From positions 1 to 30,300 of IMG/VR virus record IMGVR_UViG_3300027762_000027: DNA of 30,300 nucleotides; one strand, given 5' to 3'. The notes below the pieces were generated by a model, which worked only from the letters and a program-made list of their open reading frames with translations, made no database searches and was not told the DNA's origin. Positions 1 through 14,176 of this stretch are shown here, piece after piece (position 1 is the stretch's first letter; every line of letters starts with the position of its first letter). A program made the translations under genes and the position numbers. This stretch comes from a virus.

Positions 1-72
1 AATTGCAATAGGCTGATTAAGGCGGTGGGAGTTTATATGTTTGACAAGGGGAGATTGCATGGCAAAGAATAA
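1..72 (+). CDS. 3' end of an upstream gene (partial), possibly small terminase
   Basis: Frame 1 is open from the window edge to a TAA at 70-72, while the other two forward frames close within the first 15 bases. It would supply the last 23 residues of a protein ending in RLHGKE. It overlaps the ATG of the large terminase gene by 14 bases, as in translationally coupled phage genes. A small terminase subunit commonly sits in this place, but too little sequence is visible to identify it. The function is inferred from position only. Confidence 0.5.
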   Translation, partial: NCNRLIKAVGVYMFDKGRLHGKE

Positions 73-2710
73 TAGAAAGGCTCTTGCTAAAGTCACACAA
101 AATAAGAAATCTCACGACATTCCTGTTGAATATACTCCAAACGATAAGCAGACTATTTTTCATAATGTTGGTACGGATATTTGTATGTACGGCGGGGCCA
201 AGGGCGGGGGAAAAGCTCAACCTTTGGATTGTGAAGTATTAACCCCTAATGGATTTAAAAAGATGGGAGACATACAAATAGGGGATGTAGTCGTAAACCC
301 TGATGGAGGTACTTCCACTGTTATTCAAGTGCATCCACAAGGGATTCAACAGGTTTACGAGATAGGTTTTGTAGATGGGGCATTTACTAAGTGTACCCTA
401 GACCACTTATGGAAAGTAAAAAAAACAGACAAGAAAAAATCACGTGTTATTGAGACACGAGACATCATAAAACACTTTGATAATAAGTATGTAAATAACC
501 TACTCATACCTCTAACTAAACCTTGTGAATTTATAACTGCAGAGGAGGAGTTACCAATCCATCCATATGTGTTAGGGTTGTTATTAGGTGACGGTTGTTT
601 GACTTACTCTAATAGAAGAATATCGCTCACAACGGATGATGATTTTATTGTAAATGAGCTTAAAGAGTTAGGGTATACTTTTGCTATTAGTGTAAAACAA
701 AAGACTAGAGCAAGGAGCTTAACATTTAATAAAGTATCTCATTTATATTTAAAAGAACAATTAAAAAAACTAGGGTTATTATCTCACTCTGCCAACTCAA
801 AATTTATTCCTAATATATATTTAGAATCAAGTATAGAGGATAGATTTGAGTTATTAAGAGGACTTATGGATAGTGACGGATATGTAGATAATAGGGGACA
901 TTGTGAATTTACTACTATATCAATGGTTCTTGCAGTAGACACACAACAATTGATTTGGAGTTTAGGTGGTAAGGCAACAATAAAACAAAAGAAATGTTCT
1001 TATAAAAAAGATGGTGTAAAAGTTGAATGTAATGATGCTTTTAGACTTTATATACAAACACCAAAAAATTCAGAAATATTTAAGTTGCCTAGAAAAAAAG
1101 AACGATGTACTGATAAATTTAATGGTGGAATTTCTAAATTACAACGTAGAATAACAAGTATAGAATATTGGGGTGATGCTGAATGTAAGTGTATTACTCT
1201 AGATAGTGAGAATCAGTTATATATTACTGATGATTATATAGTAACTCATAATTCATGCGCCTTAGTTATGGATGCCCTTATGTATGCTGTAGATTATCCA
1301 GGAGCATTGATATATTTGTTTAGGGAGAGTTACGATGATTTAGAGGCCAATATTATAAGAGAGTGGAAAACCAAAGTCCCTAAGGAATTATACGAATACT
1401 CTGAAACGAAGCATATTGCTAAATGTATAAATGGCAGTGAAGTAATATTTAGATATATCTCAAATGACCAAGATGCTGATAGGTATAGGGGTCGTTCGAT
1501 GGACTATATTGGCGTTGACGAATTAACCAAGCATAGTAAAGAAAGTATACAAATATTGCTTTCTTGTTTGAGAAGTCCAAAGGGATTTCCTCCTAGGTTT
1601 AGAGGTACGACGAATCCAGGCTCAAAAGGCCATAATTGGGTTAAAATGGATTTCGTTGAGGCCACTGATTATGGCAAATATATTATAAAAGATCCAGTTA
1701 CAGAACAATCAATTTCTTTTATTCCTGCCACAGTGTATGATAACTATGTCATAATGGAAAATGACCCTAACTATGTTAAGAGGTTGGAGAATCTACCAGA
1801 GAGAGAACGTAAAGCCTTTCTGTTAGGTGATTGGGATTTATTCGAAGGACAGTATTTTAATTTTGTTCGTTCTGTTCATGTGGTAGATAATATGGTTATT
1901 CCGAAAGACTGGGATAGATACGTTTCCCTTGACTATGGATTAGATATGTTGGCGGCATACTGGACAGCATTTGATCCGCAGGGGAAAGCTCATGTATACA
2001 GAGAAGCCCACGTTCCTAATTTAATTATTTCTGAGGCAAGAGAATTAATAAATTCTATGACATTACCGAACGAAAATGTAGTTTCATATATTGCTCCACC
2101 TGATTTATGGAACAGGAGACAGGACACAGGAAAGTCCGCTGCTGAAATATTTTCAGAAAGTGCAGATGGAATATTCTTAATTAAAGCTAGTAATGATAGG
2201 GTGCAGGGTTGGTATAACATGAGAGAGTGGCTAAGAATCCACAAAGTTAGAGATGAGCAAACTGGTGCAGATATATTTGTGTCTAACATGGTTATATCAA
2301 GTGAGTGTCCTTGTTTGATAAGAGGTATTTCAGAATCACAGGCAGACGAGAAAAATCCTAGTGATGTTGCAAAAGAGCCTCATATCTTGACACATAGTTG
2401 CTTGACTGGTGATACTATTATTGAAACTGTAACTGGTGGTATTAGAATAGATGAATTAATAGGGTCTAATCATTTAGTATATTGTATAGATGATAAAACA
2501 AGGAAACAAGAAATAGGTTTGGCTTATGATGTTAGAATGACAAGCCCTAAAGAAAAGGTGTATAAGGTTGATTTAGAAGATGGCAGATTTGTGAAAGCAA
2601 CAGCAGACCACAAACTACTTACTGAAAGAGGTTGGGTAGAATTAAAAGATTTAAAATTAGATGACGAAATAGTAACTATTGATGGACAGACACCTTGCGA
2701 TATGTTATAA
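59..2710 (+). CDS. terL: Terminase large subunit, N-terminal part, with an internal intein and the N-half of a split intein
   Basis: This is the DNA packaging motor: an ATPase that pumps DNA through the portal and a nuclease that cuts the concatemer. The ATG at 59 has an AAGGGGAG ribosome site at 46-53; the in-frame TTG at 41 has none and is less likely. In spliced numbering the protein shows Walker A GGAKGGGK-S (residues 45-53, split by the intein at 215-1252), Walker B IGVDE (D141/E142, 1508-1522), the coupling motif GTTNPG (170-175) and a first nuclease aspartate in SLDYGLD (D279). The terminase part stops at THS (2398). The rest of the reading frame, 2399-2707, is an intein N-half, then TAA. 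The missing end, including a conserved DSIRY motif, is encoded at 3479-3598. The N-extein is 434 residues; with the 40-residue C-extein the product is 474, a normal length for the family. Confidence 0.93.
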   Translation: MAKNNRKALAKVTQNKKSHDIPVEYTPNDKQTIFHNVGTDICMYGGAKGGGKAQPLDCEVLTPNGFKKMGDIQIGDVVVNPDGGTSTVIQVHPQGIQQVYEIGFVDGAFTKCTLDHLWKVKKTDKKKSRVIETRDIIKHFDNKYVNNLLIPLTKPCEFITAEEELPIHPYVLGLLLGDGCLTYSNRRISLTTDDDFIVNELKELGYTFAISVKQKTRARSLTFNKVSHLYLKEQLKKLGLLSHSANSKFIPNIYLESSIEDRFELLRGLMDSDGYVDNRGHCEFTTISMVLAVDTQQLIWSLGGKATIKQKKCSYKKDGVKVECNDAFRLYIQTPKNSEIFKLPRKKERCTDKFNGGISKLQRRITSIEYWGDAECKCITLDSENQLYITDDYIVTHNSCALVMDALMYAVDYPGALIYLFRESYDDLEANIIREWKTKVPKELYEYSETKHIAKCINGSEVIFRYISNDQDADRYRGRSMDYIGVDELTKHSKESIQILLSCLRSPKGFPPRFRGTTNPGSKGHNWVKMDFVEATDYGKYIIKDPVTEQSISFIPATVYDNYVIMENDPNYVKRLENLPERERKAFLLGDWDLFEGQYFNFVRSVHVVDNMVIPKDWDRYVSLDYGLDMLAAYWTAFDPQGKAHVYREAHVPNLIISEARELINSMTLPNENVVSYIAPPDLWNRRQDTGKSAAEIFSESADGIFLIKASNDRVQGWYNMREWLRIHKVRDEQTGADIFVSNMVISSECPCLIRGISESQADEKNPSDVAKEPHILTHSCLTGDTIIETVTGGIRIDELIGSNHLVYCIDDKTRKQEIGLAYDVRMTSPKEKVYKVDLEDGRFVKATADHKLLTERGWVELKDLKLDDEIVTIDGQTPCDML
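215..1252 (+). mobile_element. Uninterrupted LAGLIDADG intein in the terminase Walker A loop (346 residues)
   Basis: This intein lies between Lys (212) and Ser (1253) of GGAKGGGK|S. It begins with Ala-Gln-Pro-Leu-Asp, not Cys or Ser, and ends VTHN followed by Ser. Block B reads CTLDHLW (Thr, His, Trp) and block F reads KCITLD. An Ala first residue with a block B Trp, a block F Cys and a Thr just before the terminal His-Asn is the pattern reported for class 3 inteins, in which the block F Cys starts splicing. Two LAGLIDADG endonuclease motifs are present: LGLLLGDG (572-595) and LRGLMDSDG (854-880). Splicing in cis restores the ATP-binding loop, so terminase cannot be active before splicing. 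The boundaries are clear; the class 3 assignment is from motif reading only. Confidence 0.92.
2399..2707 (+). other. N-half of a split intein in terminase (103 residues)
   Basis: The half starts with Cys1 (CLTGDTIIE, block A) directly after terminase residues LTHS. It contains block B ATADHKLLT, with the usual Thr-x-x-His, followed by a WVELKDLKLDDEIV strand. It ends at a TAA, with no endonuclease domain and no C-terminal splicing blocks. Its length and its VYKVDLEDG/ATADHKLLT region resemble the N-half of cyanobacterial DnaE split inteins, which is about 102 residues. It should pair with the 35-residue C-half encoded at 3374-3478 and splice Ser434 to Cys435 in trans. Confidence 0.9.
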
Positions 2711-2729
2711 TATAAAGTGAGGTGAGAGT

Positions 2730-3362
2730 ATGTATGTAGAGTTAGATGGTATTAAATTTTACAAAGATAGTAAAGGTTATTATAGTGGTGCTTTTAAATA
2801 TAAAAGGCTTCATGTTTATATTTGGGAAAGGGAACATGGTAAAGTACCTAAAGGTTATCATGTGCATCATAAAGACGAGAATAAAGAAAATAACGAATTA
2901 AGCAATCTGGAGTTGATAGAAAAAAGTAGACATCTTAGTTTACATTCTAGTACGAAAGAAAATGTTGAACGCATCAAAAAAGTTTTAGAAGAAAAAGCAA
3001 GACCAGCCGCTATAAAATGGCATAAGTCTAAAGCGGGTAGAGAGTGGCACTTAAAACATTACGAAGATATGAAAGATAAGTTTCATGCGACTAAAGAAAT
3101 AATCTGTTTAGTCTGTGAGAAAAAAGTAGAAGTGCCTCTTGGTGGAGGGGGAAAAGAAGGACATAAATTTTGTTCTAATAATTGCAAATCCACACACAGA
3201 AGGCGTTCTGGTGTAGATAATATAAAAGCAAATTGCATATTATGTGGTAAGGAATTTGAAAAAAACAAATATTCCAAAGTGGTATATTGTTCTCGTTCCT
3301 GTTCTGCTAAGGTTAACAGAAAAATTCAATTAGAAAAAATGGACTCAAATAGAACAAGTTAG
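2730..3362 (+). CDS. Free-standing HNH homing endonuclease with two zinc fingers, inside the split intein locus
   Basis: This 210-residue protein has its own ATG and a GTGAGGTGA ribosome site (2717-2725), 19 bases after the stop of the intein N-half. Residues 27-72 form a phage HNH domain: RLHVYIWEREHG, then YHVHHKDENKENN with H46/H47, SNLELI with N59, then SRHLSLH. The C-terminal half has two Cys4 zinc-finger-like units, C126/C129/C148/C152 and C169/C172/C187/C191, which probably bind DNA. Its position exactly between the two intein halves suggests that it cuts an uninterrupted terminase allele and so spreads the whole unit. The stop TAG overlaps a GTG of the next frame (TAGTG), so translation may be coupled. 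Endonuclease identity is well supported; target and activity are inferred. Confidence 0.88.
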   Translation: MYVELDGIKFYKDSKGYYSGAFKYKRLHVYIWEREHGKVPKGYHVHHKDENKENNELSNLELIEKSRHLSLHSSTKENVERIKKVLEEKARPAAIKWHKSKAGREWHLKHYEDMKDKFHATKEIICLVCEKKVEVPLGGGGKEGHKFCSNNCKSTHRRRSGVDNIKANCILCGKEFEKNKYSKVVYCSRSCSAKVNRKIQLEKMDSNRTS

Positions 3363-3373
3363 TGGGTGACGAA

Positions 3374-3478
3374 ATGAAAATCAAATCAATAACTTTTATC
3401 GGTGAAGAACCTGTCTATAATATGGAAGTAGACAGGTTTCATAATTTTGCGGTAAATGGAGGAGTGATAGTCCACAAC
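3374..3478 (+). other. C-half of the split intein (35 residues)
   Basis: The C-half runs from the Met at 3374 to the terminal Asn at 3476-3478, followed by Cys as the +1 residue. The block F His-Asn-Phe and the penultimate His needed for Asn cyclisation are present. The 103 + 35 split lies where endonuclease domains normally sit in uninterrupted inteins, and where DnaE inteins are naturally split. Confidence 0.88.
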
Positions 3479-3601
3479 TGTGACTCCATTAGGTATCTCC
3501 TTAGTAATCGACCAGCTCCTACAAATCCTGGTGCTACATATTACAGTGATGATGAGGATGATGATGATATTGATTTAAAAGGTGGCTATTTCGACAGTTA
3601 A
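3374..3601 (+). CDS. terL: Split intein C-half fused to the terminase C-terminus
   Basis: This 75-residue protein consists of a 35-residue intein C-half followed by 40 residues of terminase. The intein part carries block F (VYNMEVDRFHNF) and block G (VIVHN|C) and resembles DnaE-type C-halves. The terminase part begins at Cys (3479) with CDSIRYLLSN. The conserved DxxRY segment normally carries the third acidic residue of the terminase nuclease (D436 after splicing), so the N-terminal product alone should lack nuclease activity. The tail is acidic (SDDEDDDDID). I chose the ATG at 3374 because GGGTGA (3364-3369) precedes it. The GTG at 3362, which overlaps the HNH stop codon, is an alternative through coupling and would add MGDE. 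Confidence 0.88.
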   Translation: MKIKSITFIGEEPVYNMEVDRFHNFAVNGGVIVHNCDSIRYLLSNRPAPTNPGATYYSDDEDDDDIDLKGGYFDS

Positions 3602-3607
3602 TTATTT

Positions 3608-3695
3608 GGCATAAAACATAGCACGTGCCACGTGTTGAGGACATTGTTACCCGATCGACAGGTTCTTTTTTTATGCCTTTTATAAATGGTCGGGT
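3608..3695 (+). promoter_or_regulatory. Structured leader upstream of the methyltransferase gene, with crossing inverted repeats
   Basis: Two long-range pairings are visible. GGCATAAAA (3608-3616) is an exact complement of TTTTATGCC (3669-3677). ACCCGATC (3649-3656) pairs with GGTCGGGT (3688-3695) with one G-U, followed by the T-rich TATATTATTTTT. The pairings cross, so they are either mutually exclusive or form a pseudoknot. A further small hairpin, TAGCACG-TGCCA-CGTGTTG, occupies 3619-3637. The second stem with its T-rich tail could act as a weak terminator and the first as its competitor, which would make this an attenuator. It matches no RNA class I recognise. The function is inferred. 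Confidence 0.4.
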
Positions 3696-3717
3696 TATAT
3701 TATTTTTAGGAGGATTT

Positions 3718-4263
3718 ATGAAGTACAGTATTATTTACGCAGATCCACCATGGAAGTATGAGGATAACCGTTGTCAAGGTGCGTGTGAAAGGCATTACGC
3801 TACATTAAGTAATAAAAGAATATGCGAGTTACCCGTCAACAAATTAGCCGCTGAAAACAGCGTACTTTTTTTATGGGCTACTTATCCTATGTTAAAAGAG
3901 GCTTTTGAAGTAATTGACTCGTGGGGTTTTACATATAAAACAATCGCATTTCAATGGGTAAAGTTAAATAAAAGCGGGAATGGGTATTTTTTAGGATTAG
4001 GTCGTTGGAGTAGGTCTAATACTGAACCATGCTTATTAGCAGTAAAGGGCAAACCCAAGCGTGTGTCTGCTAGTGTTAGACAATTAATTACATCTCCTTT
4101 AAGACGTCATTCACAGAAACCTGATGAGACACGAGACAGAATAGTTGAACTTGTAGGAGATTTACCAAGATTAGAGTTGTTCGCCAGAGAAAAAATAGAT
4201 GGCTGGGATTCGTGGGGGAATGAAGTAAAAAACAATATAAAACTTTCTTTGGAGGATTTATGA
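3718..4263 (+). CDS. MT-A70 family DNA adenine methyltransferase
   Basis: This 181-residue protein is predicted to methylate adenine N6 using S-adenosylmethionine. The catalytic DPPW motif is at residues 9-12 (YADPPW), the pattern of the MT-A70 family found in phages. Downstream it has the FLWATYPML segment and a conserved SRSNTEPCLLAVKG stretch. The ATG at 3718 has an AGGAGG ribosome site (3708-3713), which decides the start over upstream in-frame codons. The stop overlaps the next gene by ATGA, implying coupled translation. A methyltransferase between terminase and portal is an accessory insertion and may protect phage DNA from restriction or mark it for packaging. No cognate restriction gene is present, so an orphan role is likely. 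Confidence 0.85.
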   Translation: MKYSIIYADPPWKYEDNRCQGACERHYATLSNKRICELPVNKLAAENSVLFLWATYPMLKEAFEVIDSWGFTYKTIAFQWVKLNKSGNGYFLGLGRWSRSNTEPCLLAVKGKPKRVSASVRQLITSPLRRHSQKPDETRDRIVELVGDLPRLELFAREKIDGWDSWGNEVKNNIKLSLEDL

Positions 4264-9322: not shown

Positions 9323-9342
9323 TCTCCACTAGAAAAGATTGC

Positions 9343-9401
9343 AATCCCCCCAGCTATATTATATAATAAAAGAAATATTTTATAGTTGGGGGGATTTAAT
9401 T
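9343..9401 (+). promoter_or_regulatory. Long hairpin: terminator-like, and masks the endonuclease ribosome site
   Basis: AATCCCCCCAGCTATA (9343-9358) pairs with TATAGTTGGGGGGATT (9381-9396) over 16 positions with a single G-U. The loop is AT-rich, and AATTTTT follows. It can end transcripts from the capsid gene. The only purine-rich ribosome site for the next gene, GGGGGGA (9388-9394), lies wholly within the 3' arm and would be buried in full-length transcripts. Such masking is known for homing endonuclease genes in phage T4. Confidence 0.75.
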
Positions 9402-9404
9402 TTT

Positions 9405-10214
9405 ATGCCTAATGGAGTTTATCTAGTTTGCTGTATGAAAACAAATAATATTTATGTTGGTGAGTCAAGGAATATCGGACATAGAATTTCTAGACATAAG
9501 TGGATGCTAAAAAATGGGACTCATTTTTCTAGGATATTACAGGATGACTGGAATAATAACGGTTCGCACAATTTTACTTTTGGTGTAATTGAACATATGG
9601 CTGATTCCAATAAAGAGGAACGGGTAAAGAGAGAATCTTATTGGATTGAACATTATAATGGAGACCCAGATTATAATGTTGTTAATGTATGTTTCGGTGA
9701 CACTCGTATGTCTGAGGAGGGTAAAGCCTCTTTTAAAAAGAAAATGAGCGAACGTATGTCTGGAGAAAACCATCCTATGTGGGGCAAAGAAGGATTTTGG
9801 AAAGACAAAAAAAGACCTGCTGAGTTTAGTTATAAAATTAGCAATGCTCTAAAAGGTCATACAGTCACAGAGGAAAGTCGTAAAAAAATGTCAGAAGCTA
9901 AACTAGGTAAAGAACCACCTAATAAATTTCAATCTACTCCAGAAATACTTGAAGAAATAAAATTTGGTATGAGTGCAAAAGAGTTCGCTGATAAGTATGG
10001 ATATTCAAAAAATACTTGGAAACGAATAAGAAAAGAACTTAAACAAACAGGCGAAATATCAGATACTAAACTTTCAAAGTATAAGGGAGTAACCTTCGAT
10101 AAGGGAAGAAATAAGTGGAGAGCGAGTTTTAGAGAAAATGGTAAAACTCGTACTATTGGTAGGTTCGATACTGAGGATGAGGCTTACAACATGATTTTGC
10201 AAAAGCAAAACTAA
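9405..10214 (+). CDS. GIY-YIG homing endonuclease with NUMOD3, HTH and AP2 DNA-binding parts
   Basis: This 269-residue free-standing endonuclease is predicted to cut intron-less or gene-less relatives and spread its own gene. Residues 4-85 are the GIY-YIG nuclease: GVY (4-6), YVG (17-19), catalytic Arg27 and Glu77 in RESYWIEHYN. A NUMOD3-type motif (SGENHPMWGK, about 119-128) and a related KALKGHTVTEES-like copy follow, then a helix-turn-helix region (AKEFADKYGYSKNTWKRI). The C-terminus is an AP2-like domain (YKGVTFDKGRNKWRASF ... TIGRFDTEDEA). The ATG at 9405 is chosen because the domain begins there; upstream in-frame codons fall in the hairpin. It interrupts the head gene order and is best read as an invader. 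Confidence 0.88.
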   Translation: MPNGVYLVCCMKTNNIYVGESRNIGHRISRHKWMLKNGTHFSRILQDDWNNNGSHNFTFGVIEHMADSNKEERVKRESYWIEHYNGDPDYNVVNVCFGDTRMSEEGKASFKKKMSERMSGENHPMWGKEGFWKDKKRPAEFSYKISNALKGHTVTEESRKKMSEAKLGKEPPNKFQSTPEILEEIKFGMSAKEFADKYGYSKNTWKRIRKELKQTGEISDTKLSKYKGVTFDKGRNKWRASFRENGKTRTIGRFDTEDEAYNMILQKQN

Positions 10215-12190: not shown

Positions 12191-14176
12191 ATGAGAAGGA
12201 CATTTGGTTCTGGAGATATAACATTAGATACTGAAAATGTTAATATAGACAATGCAGCGTTGGAGGCACTTATAGGAGAAGTACAAGCGAGTCCCACAGC
12301 CAACACATTATTAGACAGGGTGAAAACACTATCTACTTTAATAGGAGAAGTTCAAGCAAATCCTACTGATAATACTGTGTTAGATAGGTTAAAAGATTTA
12401 CTTACTGGAATAATTTTAGCAGAAGGAACTAATATAGTAGGTAAAGTTGGGATAGACCAAACAACAGACGGTACAACAAATAAGGTTGCTGTTGGTTCTA
12501 TTGCAGCAGGTACAGCGAAAATTGGAACAGTTAACATAAGAAATAATGCGGATAGTGCCAATATAGATCCTTTAGCAGAAGCTACATTTACAGGGCGTGT
12601 TGGAGAAGTACAAGCAAGTCCAACGGCTAACACGGTGTTGGATAGACTTAAAACTCTAGCTACATTAATTGGTGAAGTACAGGAGAATCCCACAGATAAT
12701 ACACTACTAGATAGATTGAAAGATATAAAAACAGCATTAGATAGTTTAACTGTAGAAACAGACACAACGGATTTAGAGGCATTGGTAGGTGAAGTGCAAG
12801 AAAGTCCTACCACTAATACGGTGTTAGATAGGTTAAAAACTATAAATACTACATTAGGCTCTTTATCAGTAGAAAGTGACACAACAGACTTAGAAGCTCT
12901 AGTAGGTGAAGTTCAAGCTAGTCCAACTCAATACACTTTATTAGATAGGGTTAAGTCTTTATTGACTGGAATAAGTTTGGCGGCTGGAACTAATTTGTTG
13001 GGTAAGGTAGGTATAGACCAAACTACAGATGGAACAACTAATAAAGTGGCGGTTGGTTCAATATCGGCAGGAACTAATAAGATTGGTTCTATAAATATTA
13101 GAAACAACGCAGATAATGCAAACATAGACCCTCTTGCAGAAACTACATTCACAGGTAGAATTGGAGAGGTACAAGCTAGTCCAACGGCAAATACCGTCTT
13201 AGATAGGTTAAAAACACTATCTACTTTAATAGGAGAGGTACAAGCGAGTCCTACAGAAAACACATTATTAGCAAGATTAAAAGATTTGTTATCAGGGATA
13301 GTTTTGGCAACAGGTAGTCATATTATAGGACAAGTTGGAATAGACCAGACTACTGATGGCACGACTAATAAAGTTTCGGTAGGTTCTATCGCAGCAGGTA
13401 CAACAAAAATTGGTTCTATCAATATAAGGAATAATGCAGATAGTGCGAACATAGATCCTTTGGCTGAATCAACATTTACAGCGAGAATAGGAGAGGTTCA
13501 AGAAACACCTACAGAAAACACGGTATTAGATAGACTAAAAACAATAAACACAACTCTAGGTTCATTATCAGTAGAAACAGATACATCGGATTTAGAGACA
13601 TTAATAGGGGAAGTACAAGCGAGTCCTACAGCTAATACTTTACTAGATAGGGTTAAAGCGTTATTAACTGGTATAGTATTAAACACTGGTTCTAATGTGA
13701 TAGGGCAAGTATCAATTAATCAGACTACAGACGGAACAACAAATAAAGTACAAGCAAGAAATGCTACACATGGAGATTTCCAAGTTAATGCCACTATCCA
13801 ACTTGCAGATACAGATGTGTCAAACACAAATGCTGTGCCTGTGAAGGTTGGCAAAGGAAGTTTGACTACATCCCATAATGCTGTGGAAGAAACAACTACA
13901 AGTGCTGAAATAGACACAACGGGTTATAACGCAGTTATGGTGTATGTTGAAGCTATATCAGGTGGAACATGGAAAGTAGATATTCAAGGTGCAGCAGCTA
14001 CAGGTGGAACATTCGTCAATTTATATGATAACTATGACAATCAATTAACTACAGGTAATCTAACAGCGGCAAGGGCAAGACTATTTGTTGGTGTAGGCAA
14101 CTTCATTAAAGTAGTTGCAACAGAAGTAGTTGACGGTGGTGCTTGTACGGTTAAAGTATTACCTATGGTTGTATAG
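12191..14176 (+). CDS. Repeat-rich virion protein with ten GEVQxxPTxNTxLDRLK repeats
   Basis: This 661-residue protein has AGGGAGGG before ATG 12191. Residues about 28-520 are built from ten copies of a 20-odd residue unit, GEVQxxPTxNTxLDRLK, each probably a short helix in a coiled-coil-like shaft. Between some copies lies a longer beta-type block with VGIDQTTDGTTNKV, GSIxAGTxKIG and IRNNADxANIDPLAE, present three times in full and once shortened. The last about 130 residues are non-repetitive and beta-rich (TGYNAVMVYVEAISGGTWKVD), perhaps a globular tip. GEVQ repeats of this kind occur in phage structural proteins of low-GC bacteria. A trimeric fibre or capsid spike is the likely role; it is inferred. 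Confidence 0.7.
   Translation: MRRTFGSGDITLDTENVNIDNAALEALIGEVQASPTANTLLDRVKTLSTLIGEVQANPTDNTVLDRLKDLLTGIILAEGTNIVGKVGIDQTTDGTTNKVAVGSIAAGTAKIGTVNIRNNADSANIDPLAEATFTGRVGEVQASPTANTVLDRLKTLATLIGEVQENPTDNTLLDRLKDIKTALDSLTVETDTTDLEALVGEVQESPTTNTVLDRLKTINTTLGSLSVESDTTDLEALVGEVQASPTQYTLLDRVKSLLTGISLAAGTNLLGKVGIDQTTDGTTNKVAVGSISAGTNKIGSINIRNNADNANIDPLAETTFTGRIGEVQASPTANTVLDRLKTLSTLIGEVQASPTENTLLARLKDLLSGIVLATGSHIIGQVGIDQTTDGTTNKVSVGSIAAGTTKIGSINIRNNADSANIDPLAESTFTARIGEVQETPTENTVLDRLKTINTTLGSLSVETDTSDLETLIGEVQASPTANTLLDRVKALLTGIVLNTGSNVIGQVSINQTTDGTTNKVQARNATHGDFQVNATIQLADTDVSNTNAVPVKVGKGSLTTSHNAVEETTTSAEIDTTGYNAVMVYVEAISGGTWKVDIQGAAATGGTFVNLYDNYDNQLTTGNLTAARARLFVGVGNFIKVVATEVVDGGACTVKVLPMVV
12270..13770 (+). 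repeat. Tandem and higher-order coding repeats in the GEVQ protein
   Basis: Ten GEVQ units are arranged with 3.5 copies of a longer block that starts near 12402, 12964, 13288 and 13668. Some segments are nearly identical at DNA level, for example AAAACACTATCTACTTTAAT in two places, while others differ mainly at third codon positions. This implies old duplication with continuing recombination and selection on the protein. Confidence 0.85.

Follow-up and report, generated by a model that had tools for sequence, protein, structure and literature searches.

The origin of split inteins has long been argued over with few intermediates at hand. Genes fractured by split inteins and accompanied by free-standing endonucleases were reportedly described by Dassa and colleagues in 2009, mainly in phages; the host proteins are said to be enzymes of DNA synthesis and repair, and half of the endonucleases are said to be Vsr-like. 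In the PolB gene of phage MIJ3, an HNH gene lies between the halves of a split intein (PMC6892783), AceL-TerL and GOS-TerL are natural split inteins of the terminase large subunit (PMC11766414), and the ShiLan domain is a hidden, out-of-frame HNH domain with zinc fingers in a phage methylase (PMC11855218). Here we analyze the gene of the terminase large subunit (terL) in the virus record IMGVR_UViG_3300027762_000027 of IMG/VR, whose whole length of 30.3 kb is referred to as the window. By its anatomy the locus is a fractured gene, i.e. one of a known kind: the gene of a conserved enzyme is broken by the halves of a split intein, and a separate HNH endonuclease gene, with its own start and a Shine-Dalgarno-like site, stands between them.

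All features of the unit are on the plus strand. The terL frame covers the remainder of the motor and the nuclease domain up to ...HILTHS (1253-2398; Terminase_6N PF03237, 3.2e-13; phrog_979, 1.1e-38) and continues into the N-terminal half of the intein (IntN), 103 residues running from CLTGDTII to CDML (2399-2707), before closing with a TAA codon at 2708-2710. The free-standing HNH gene (210 residues, 2730-3362; PF13392, 2.4e-15; phrog_15471, 5.3e-43; AlphaFold model with a predicted local distance difference test, pLDDT, of 90.8) has a Shine-Dalgarno-like AGGTGA at 2720-2725, 4 nt 5' of its ATG. A second such site, GGGTGA (3364-3369), precedes the ATG at 3374 of a third open reading frame, which encodes the C-terminal half (IntC; MKIKSITFIGEEPVYNMEVDRFHNFAVNGGVIVHN, 35 residues, 3374-3478), with blocks F and G and a terminal HN, joined to the terL C-extein. 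The latter begins with the Cys+1 of CDSIRYLL and has 40 residues plus the stop (3479-3601), with 85-93% identity to the terL tails of two relatives, L001 and L002. An alternative start for IntC, the GTG at 3362, would give a 1-nt overlap with the HNH stop. The total insert (2399-3478) is 1,080 bp long. An earlier note on this DNA had described a terL frame closing after an IntN that starts Cys-Leu-Thr-Gly, a separate HNH/zinc-finger gene with its own ribosome site and a 35-residue IntC ending in HN and joined to CDSIRYLL, and all three were confirmed at these positions.

The same note had proposed a search of intein profiles, in which both halves matched the Intein_splicing domain of Pfam (PF14890), IntN over profile positions 10-94 (5.8e-9) and IntC over positions 122-155 (3.1e-5). 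Because these matches fall on complementary parts of one domain, the intein halves go beyond chance. The splicing blocks are all present, as had been claimed, and correspond to a class 1 intein: C1, T68/H71 in block B, the terminal H34-N35 and C+1. IntN resembles the Ssp DnaB mini-intein (6frg/1mi8) with E values of about 4e-8 to 6e-8; fold prediction was done for the relative L056 only, and it is through sequence (PF14890 and the DnaB mini-intein) that the halves in the window are likened to a Hint domain. The intein frame contains 32 stops between the halves. Once this intein and a second one located upstream in the same gene are removed, the exteins join to the terminase of 474 residues that had been predicted, 463 of which (97.7%) are identical in the uninterrupted TerL of L001. 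A second intact terL, whose presence would refute the reading according to the earlier note, was not seen in the 30.3-kb record, itself possibly incomplete. A protein family of 98 positions with no known function, phrog_28563, matches the product of the third reading frame (P0003, 3374-3601; 1.4e-15), and other small genes of this "unknown" type may likewise be C-halves of split inteins with terminase tails.

The HNH protein carries the catalytic motif of HNH homing endonucleases (HNH_3, the PF13392 match), with a core formed by H46/H47, N55/N59 and H68, where H46, H47, N54, N55, N59 and H68 are invariant, followed by two treble-clef-like Cys4 fingers (C126/C129/C148/C152 and C169/C172/C187/C191). 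No match to it was found in the PDB with phmmer. Alleles with and without the gene exist at one site, both when the window is compared with its relatives L001 to L003 and when two further loci, L132 and L257, are compared with each other. In L001 to L003, whose TerL cores are 94-99% (L001 and L002) or 83% (L003) identical to that of the window, neither terL position holds an intein, and the comparison with insert-free terL genes that the earlier note had called for gives exact empty sites, ...HILSHS/IDSIRY or ...THS/VDAIRY versus S/CDSIRY in the window (the slash marks the junction). The +1 residue is Cys in the occupied allele and Ile or Val in the empty ones, in line with the demands of splicing chemistry. 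One contig, L004 (IMGVR 3300009009_000079), is 100% identical to the window across 6,823 bp including the insert, possibly as a result of related sampling. Nucleotide relatives of the insert were absent from phage records, and genome contigs scanned with a single protein yielded nothing.

Searches with the HNH protein and with IntN gathered about 300 loci, and the 224 bearing an HNH gene formed 171 clusters at 80% identity, which were sorted by hidden Markov model scans and frame analysis. The same HNH family is found at the same TerL nuclease motif in more than 140 clusters. Readable exteins show this motif, H..D..RY, which the intein interrupts at one of a few closely spaced positions; a strict pattern of the motif was passed by 84 of 114, many of the others being subsite variants. 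About 40 clusters, including Lactobacillus phage CL2 and a contig of Staphylococcus borealis, are fractured like the window. An IntC start is present in all the fractured clusters, with a Shine-Dalgarno match of at least 4 nt in 38 of 41, and in about three quarters IntC is in the +1 frame relative to HNH, often starting inside the HNH gene; the window, with separate genes, is among the cleaner cases. The locus L214 was counted as fractured, but its appearance is that of an overprinted locus with a frameshift. Overprinting was observed in 72 clusters, where IntN and IntC share one open frame that runs through an HNH gene lying in another frame. No intein was detected around HNH on the same strand in 54 clusters, and 31 of these have the HNH gene no more than about 200 bp from where an intact terL without an intein ends. 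Three of the 54 (L128, L133 and L143) have HNH in antisense beside or between split-intein halves, an arrangement seen between the halves of TerL inteins in L133/L256, L143/L260 and L251/L252. Finally, L261 is a naked split intein without HNH, with a few dozen nucleotides from the stop to the IntC start. Two further loci were noted: L205, an overprinted TerL intein/HNH on a metagenome-assembled contig assigned to a Thermoplasmatales archaeon, which presumably reflects a provirus or a mistake in binning, and L039 in Bacillus phage SP-15 (about 1472-2602), a hypothetical gene with an intein containing an in-frame HNH-like domain.

A split intein with the HNH gene lodged inside it is by far the best reading of the locus, and is supported because of the 32 stops, the absence of an intron family, the separate starts with Shine-Dalgarno-like sites, the relatives with empty sites and the existence of about 40 clusters built alike. 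As a whole, the best explanation, to which we assign a probability of roughly 0.88, is a class 1 mini-intein in the nuclease motif of TerL that was split by an HNH gene, splices in trans and spreads by means of HNH. The mini-intein is seated in the catalytic H..D..RY motif, and the HNH gene would have inserted at the usual position of the endonuclease domain in inteins, making this one a split intein of natural origin. Translation would then yield three separate products, TerL-IntN, the HNH protein and IntC with the TerL tail, probably from one transcript, and the complete splicing motifs suggest that the intein halves associate, excise themselves and join TerL between S and C. The HNH protein would probably cut intein-free terL at or near the motif, and repair would copy the intein and the HNH gene, which could spread jointly. 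Homing by HNH is proposed because the distribution is sporadic, empty sites exist and members of the same HNH family adjoin an intact terL in many phages; the latter situation would also fit collaborative homing as discussed for the terL of phage ICP1 (PMC10448857).

Several points weigh against this explanation. Splicing and cleavage, as well as the target of HNH at or near the motif, are steps that we infer. The flanks of the insert in the window carry no clear signal of co-conversion, and a Foldseek search with the HNH model listed I-HmuI first, but not significantly (E 0.7). The comparison between L257, a contiguous mini-intein without a homing endonuclease gene (HEG), and L132, in which nearly the same intein is split, can also be seen from two sides: both align gap-free for 291 bp (88%) and again for 148 bp (82%), and between these flanks L132 has exactly 639 extra bases that begin with a stop and AAGGAGG and comprise most of the HNH gene, a difference that could be due to insertion or to clean loss.

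Among the alternatives, it is unlikely that HNH is a domesticated partner of the terminase in packaging, as reported for HK97, its location in an intein being secondary. The family is tightly linked to terL, with 31 free-standing clusters adjoining it, and the HNH protein of HK97 acts with the terminase in cos cleavage, as cited in a passage of PMC10448857; however, L001 and L002, with a nearly identical TerL core, lack HNH at this site, inteins hold the gene in either orientation and in several different frames, and HEG-less alleles exist. A broken gene or an assembly error, i.e. an ordinary contiguous intein disrupted by erroneous frameshifts or stops, would be conceivable in a metagenome contig, and L214 does resemble a simple frameshift of an overprinted locus, but this is very improbable for the window given the number of stops between the halves, the second, identical contig, the conserved starts and Shine-Dalgarno-like sites, the about 40 independent clusters and the complete genome of phage CL2. 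Similarly little credit can be given to a group I or II RNA intron with an HNH gene splitting terL. Group I introns often contain HNH_3 genes. In ICP1, terL is interrupted by an intron that has a HEG next to it (PMC10448857). In the window, however, no Rfam family reached the gathering threshold, E values up to 5 gave only chance-level matches, both halves match the intein splicing domain, which ends in HN followed by C, and the limits of the insertion coincide with those of the intein. That programmed frameshifting or readthrough still links the halves in cis into one bifunctional intein, as the open intein frame of the 72 overprinted clusters might suggest, is scarcely plausible with 32 stops in the frame of the window, antisense HNH genes in some relatives and slippery heptamers that are not enriched even in overprinted loci (23 versus 21.6 expected).

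The overprinted clusters deserve separate consideration. Their frame relation is always the same, with the intein at HNH+1. Over a mean of 194 codons, this frame has no stops in overprinted genes (by definition); fractured HNH genes average 8.1 stops and other HNH genes 7.8, and just 3-4% of the genes in these two groups have it stop-free. Shuffling of synonymous codons within overprinted genes gave a mean of 2.0 stops, with a probability of 13% that none occurs (5% for 43 low-GC genes), and the product of these chances over clusters, about 1e-95, overstates the case because the clusters are related. The distribution is two-peaked: where both halves are in the +1 frame, 72 clusters are stop-free and 11 have 2-17 stops. 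L060 to L062 are placed among the overprinted clusters, yet have 12 stops. Substitutions are distributed alike over codon positions in overprinted, fractured and free-standing HNH genes; therefore, only the absence of stops is apparently maintained in the intein frame, which suggests protein-level constraint on the HNH frame alone, with the intein frame just kept open. In the model of the contiguous intein of L056, the Hint domain is formed by residues 1-88 and 289-325 (pLDDT mostly 94-97), with a template modelling (TM) score of 0.8 against the Mtu RecA intein and a low-confidence overprinted middle. A Shine-Dalgarno match of at least 5 nt ahead of HNH was present in 25/38 fractured and 29/42 other genes, and in only 20/72 overprinted ones. 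Expression of HNH by frameshifting from the intein frame was considered and rejected, given the lack of enrichment of slippery heptamers (23/72). In the deposited genomes of Tetrasphaera phage TJE1 (L028), Acinetobacter phage Highwayman (L029) and phage MD07 (L033), the annotated single terL reading frame hides an overprinted HNH gene.

It seems to us fairly probable that these loci make up a TerL-specific intein/HNH system with a new intein architecture, in which an HNH gene is overprinted in an intein that splices in cis around an unconstrained linker of about 200 residues, and in which insertion in other frames or in the other orientation makes a split intein; this would provide a visible route to split inteins, the window representing the cleanly fractured state. 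At the level of sequence, HEG-less mini-inteins, naked split inteins, fractured genes with HNH in either orientation, overprinted inteins and free-standing HNH genes have all been established. In the intein tree, a supported branch parts a mainly split lineage, which includes the window, from a mainly overprinted one, with a few exchanges, and the naked split intein of L261 is sister to the fractured L190. The tree comes from a short alignment, which limits resolution, and without a known root it does not give the direction of most changes.

Besides the fractured unit, the window contains other elements of note. The first part of the terL N-extein, from the ATG at 59 to the Walker A sequence GGAKGGGK (59-214, plus strand), is uninterrupted in L001 to L003, and is followed in the window by the second intein of this gene that had been announced in the earlier note, located outside the fractured unit (215-1252, plus strand; 346 residues, with Ala1 and LAGLIDADG; PF14528, 2.6e-13; PF05204, 5.7e-9). 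It interrupts Walker A (GGGK/AQPL...IVTHN/SCAL) and is absent from the same three relatives. Its first residue is Ala, and Trp in block B, Cys in block F and Thr ahead of HN are residues that fit the class 3 (WCT) signature. A promoter-like TGGACA-17-TATAAT (11/12 positions; 2683-2711, plus strand) possibly serves the HNH gene, on weak evidence, as 8 such sites were found and 6.3 are expected by chance. Downstream of terL, 3625-4263 encodes an MT-A70-type DNA methyltransferase that is absent in L002 and replaced in L001 by a C5-methyltransferase-like reading frame, so this region is a swap site. A GIY-YIG homing-endonuclease-like gene (9339-10214; phrog_314, phrog_5123) is located directly 3' of the major capsid gene, and a large gene with repeated IGEVQASPTANTVLDRLKT-like units (12191-14176) is probably related to tail or fibre.

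At a single motif of one gene, the family shows the empty site, the mini-intein, the naked split intein, the fractured gene and the overprinted form, along with a pair of loci with and without the HNH gene, which makes the origin of split inteins testable. The overprinted loci would also mean that an endonuclease gene of the homing type can occupy the same DNA as its intein in another frame. The family further offers dozens of new TerL inteins with the canonical split, which are candidate tools for protein joining. The earlier note had suggested that a terminase example with a double zinc-finger HNH gene, in a phage with a second intein in the same protein, might be undescribed. The element is not unique, being present also in phage CL2 and many contigs, and split TerL inteins of another type and an HNH gene in a split PolB were already known. 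No description of an HNH gene overprinted in an intein, or of this TerL family, was found in the open-access papers searched, most subscription papers lying outside that coverage. The architecture of CL2 (KR905067) is that of the window, with 44% identity in IntN, 42% in HNH and 60% in IntC; its record annotates terminase, HNH and portal only, leaving the IntC-terL tail unannotated.

The fractured genes of Dassa and colleagues are likewise said to be enzyme genes interrupted by the two halves of a split intein, with the gene of an endonuclease in between, while here the host is the nuclease motif of terminase and the endonuclease is an HNH_3 protein with two zinc fingers. Phage MIJ3 shares with the window an HNH gene between split halves in one phage operon, and differs in its PolB extein, its Ser1 intein and its insertion site. 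AceL-TerL and GOS-TerL are atypical, with N-halves of 25-37 and C-halves of 104-115 residues, so that the window, with 103 and 35, does not belong to that short N-half type. The ShiLan domain, nearest precedent found for the overprinted intein although not an intein itself, is like the 72 overprinted relatives in having HNH in an alternate frame of a host reading frame that stays open; it has no splicing domain, whereas the TerL relatives possess a Hint domain and are inteins, and the window, its intein frame closed by stops, is fractured and not overprinted. With respect to these systems, the overprinted arrangement looks new, and the overprinted branch of the TerL family appears to be a new variant.
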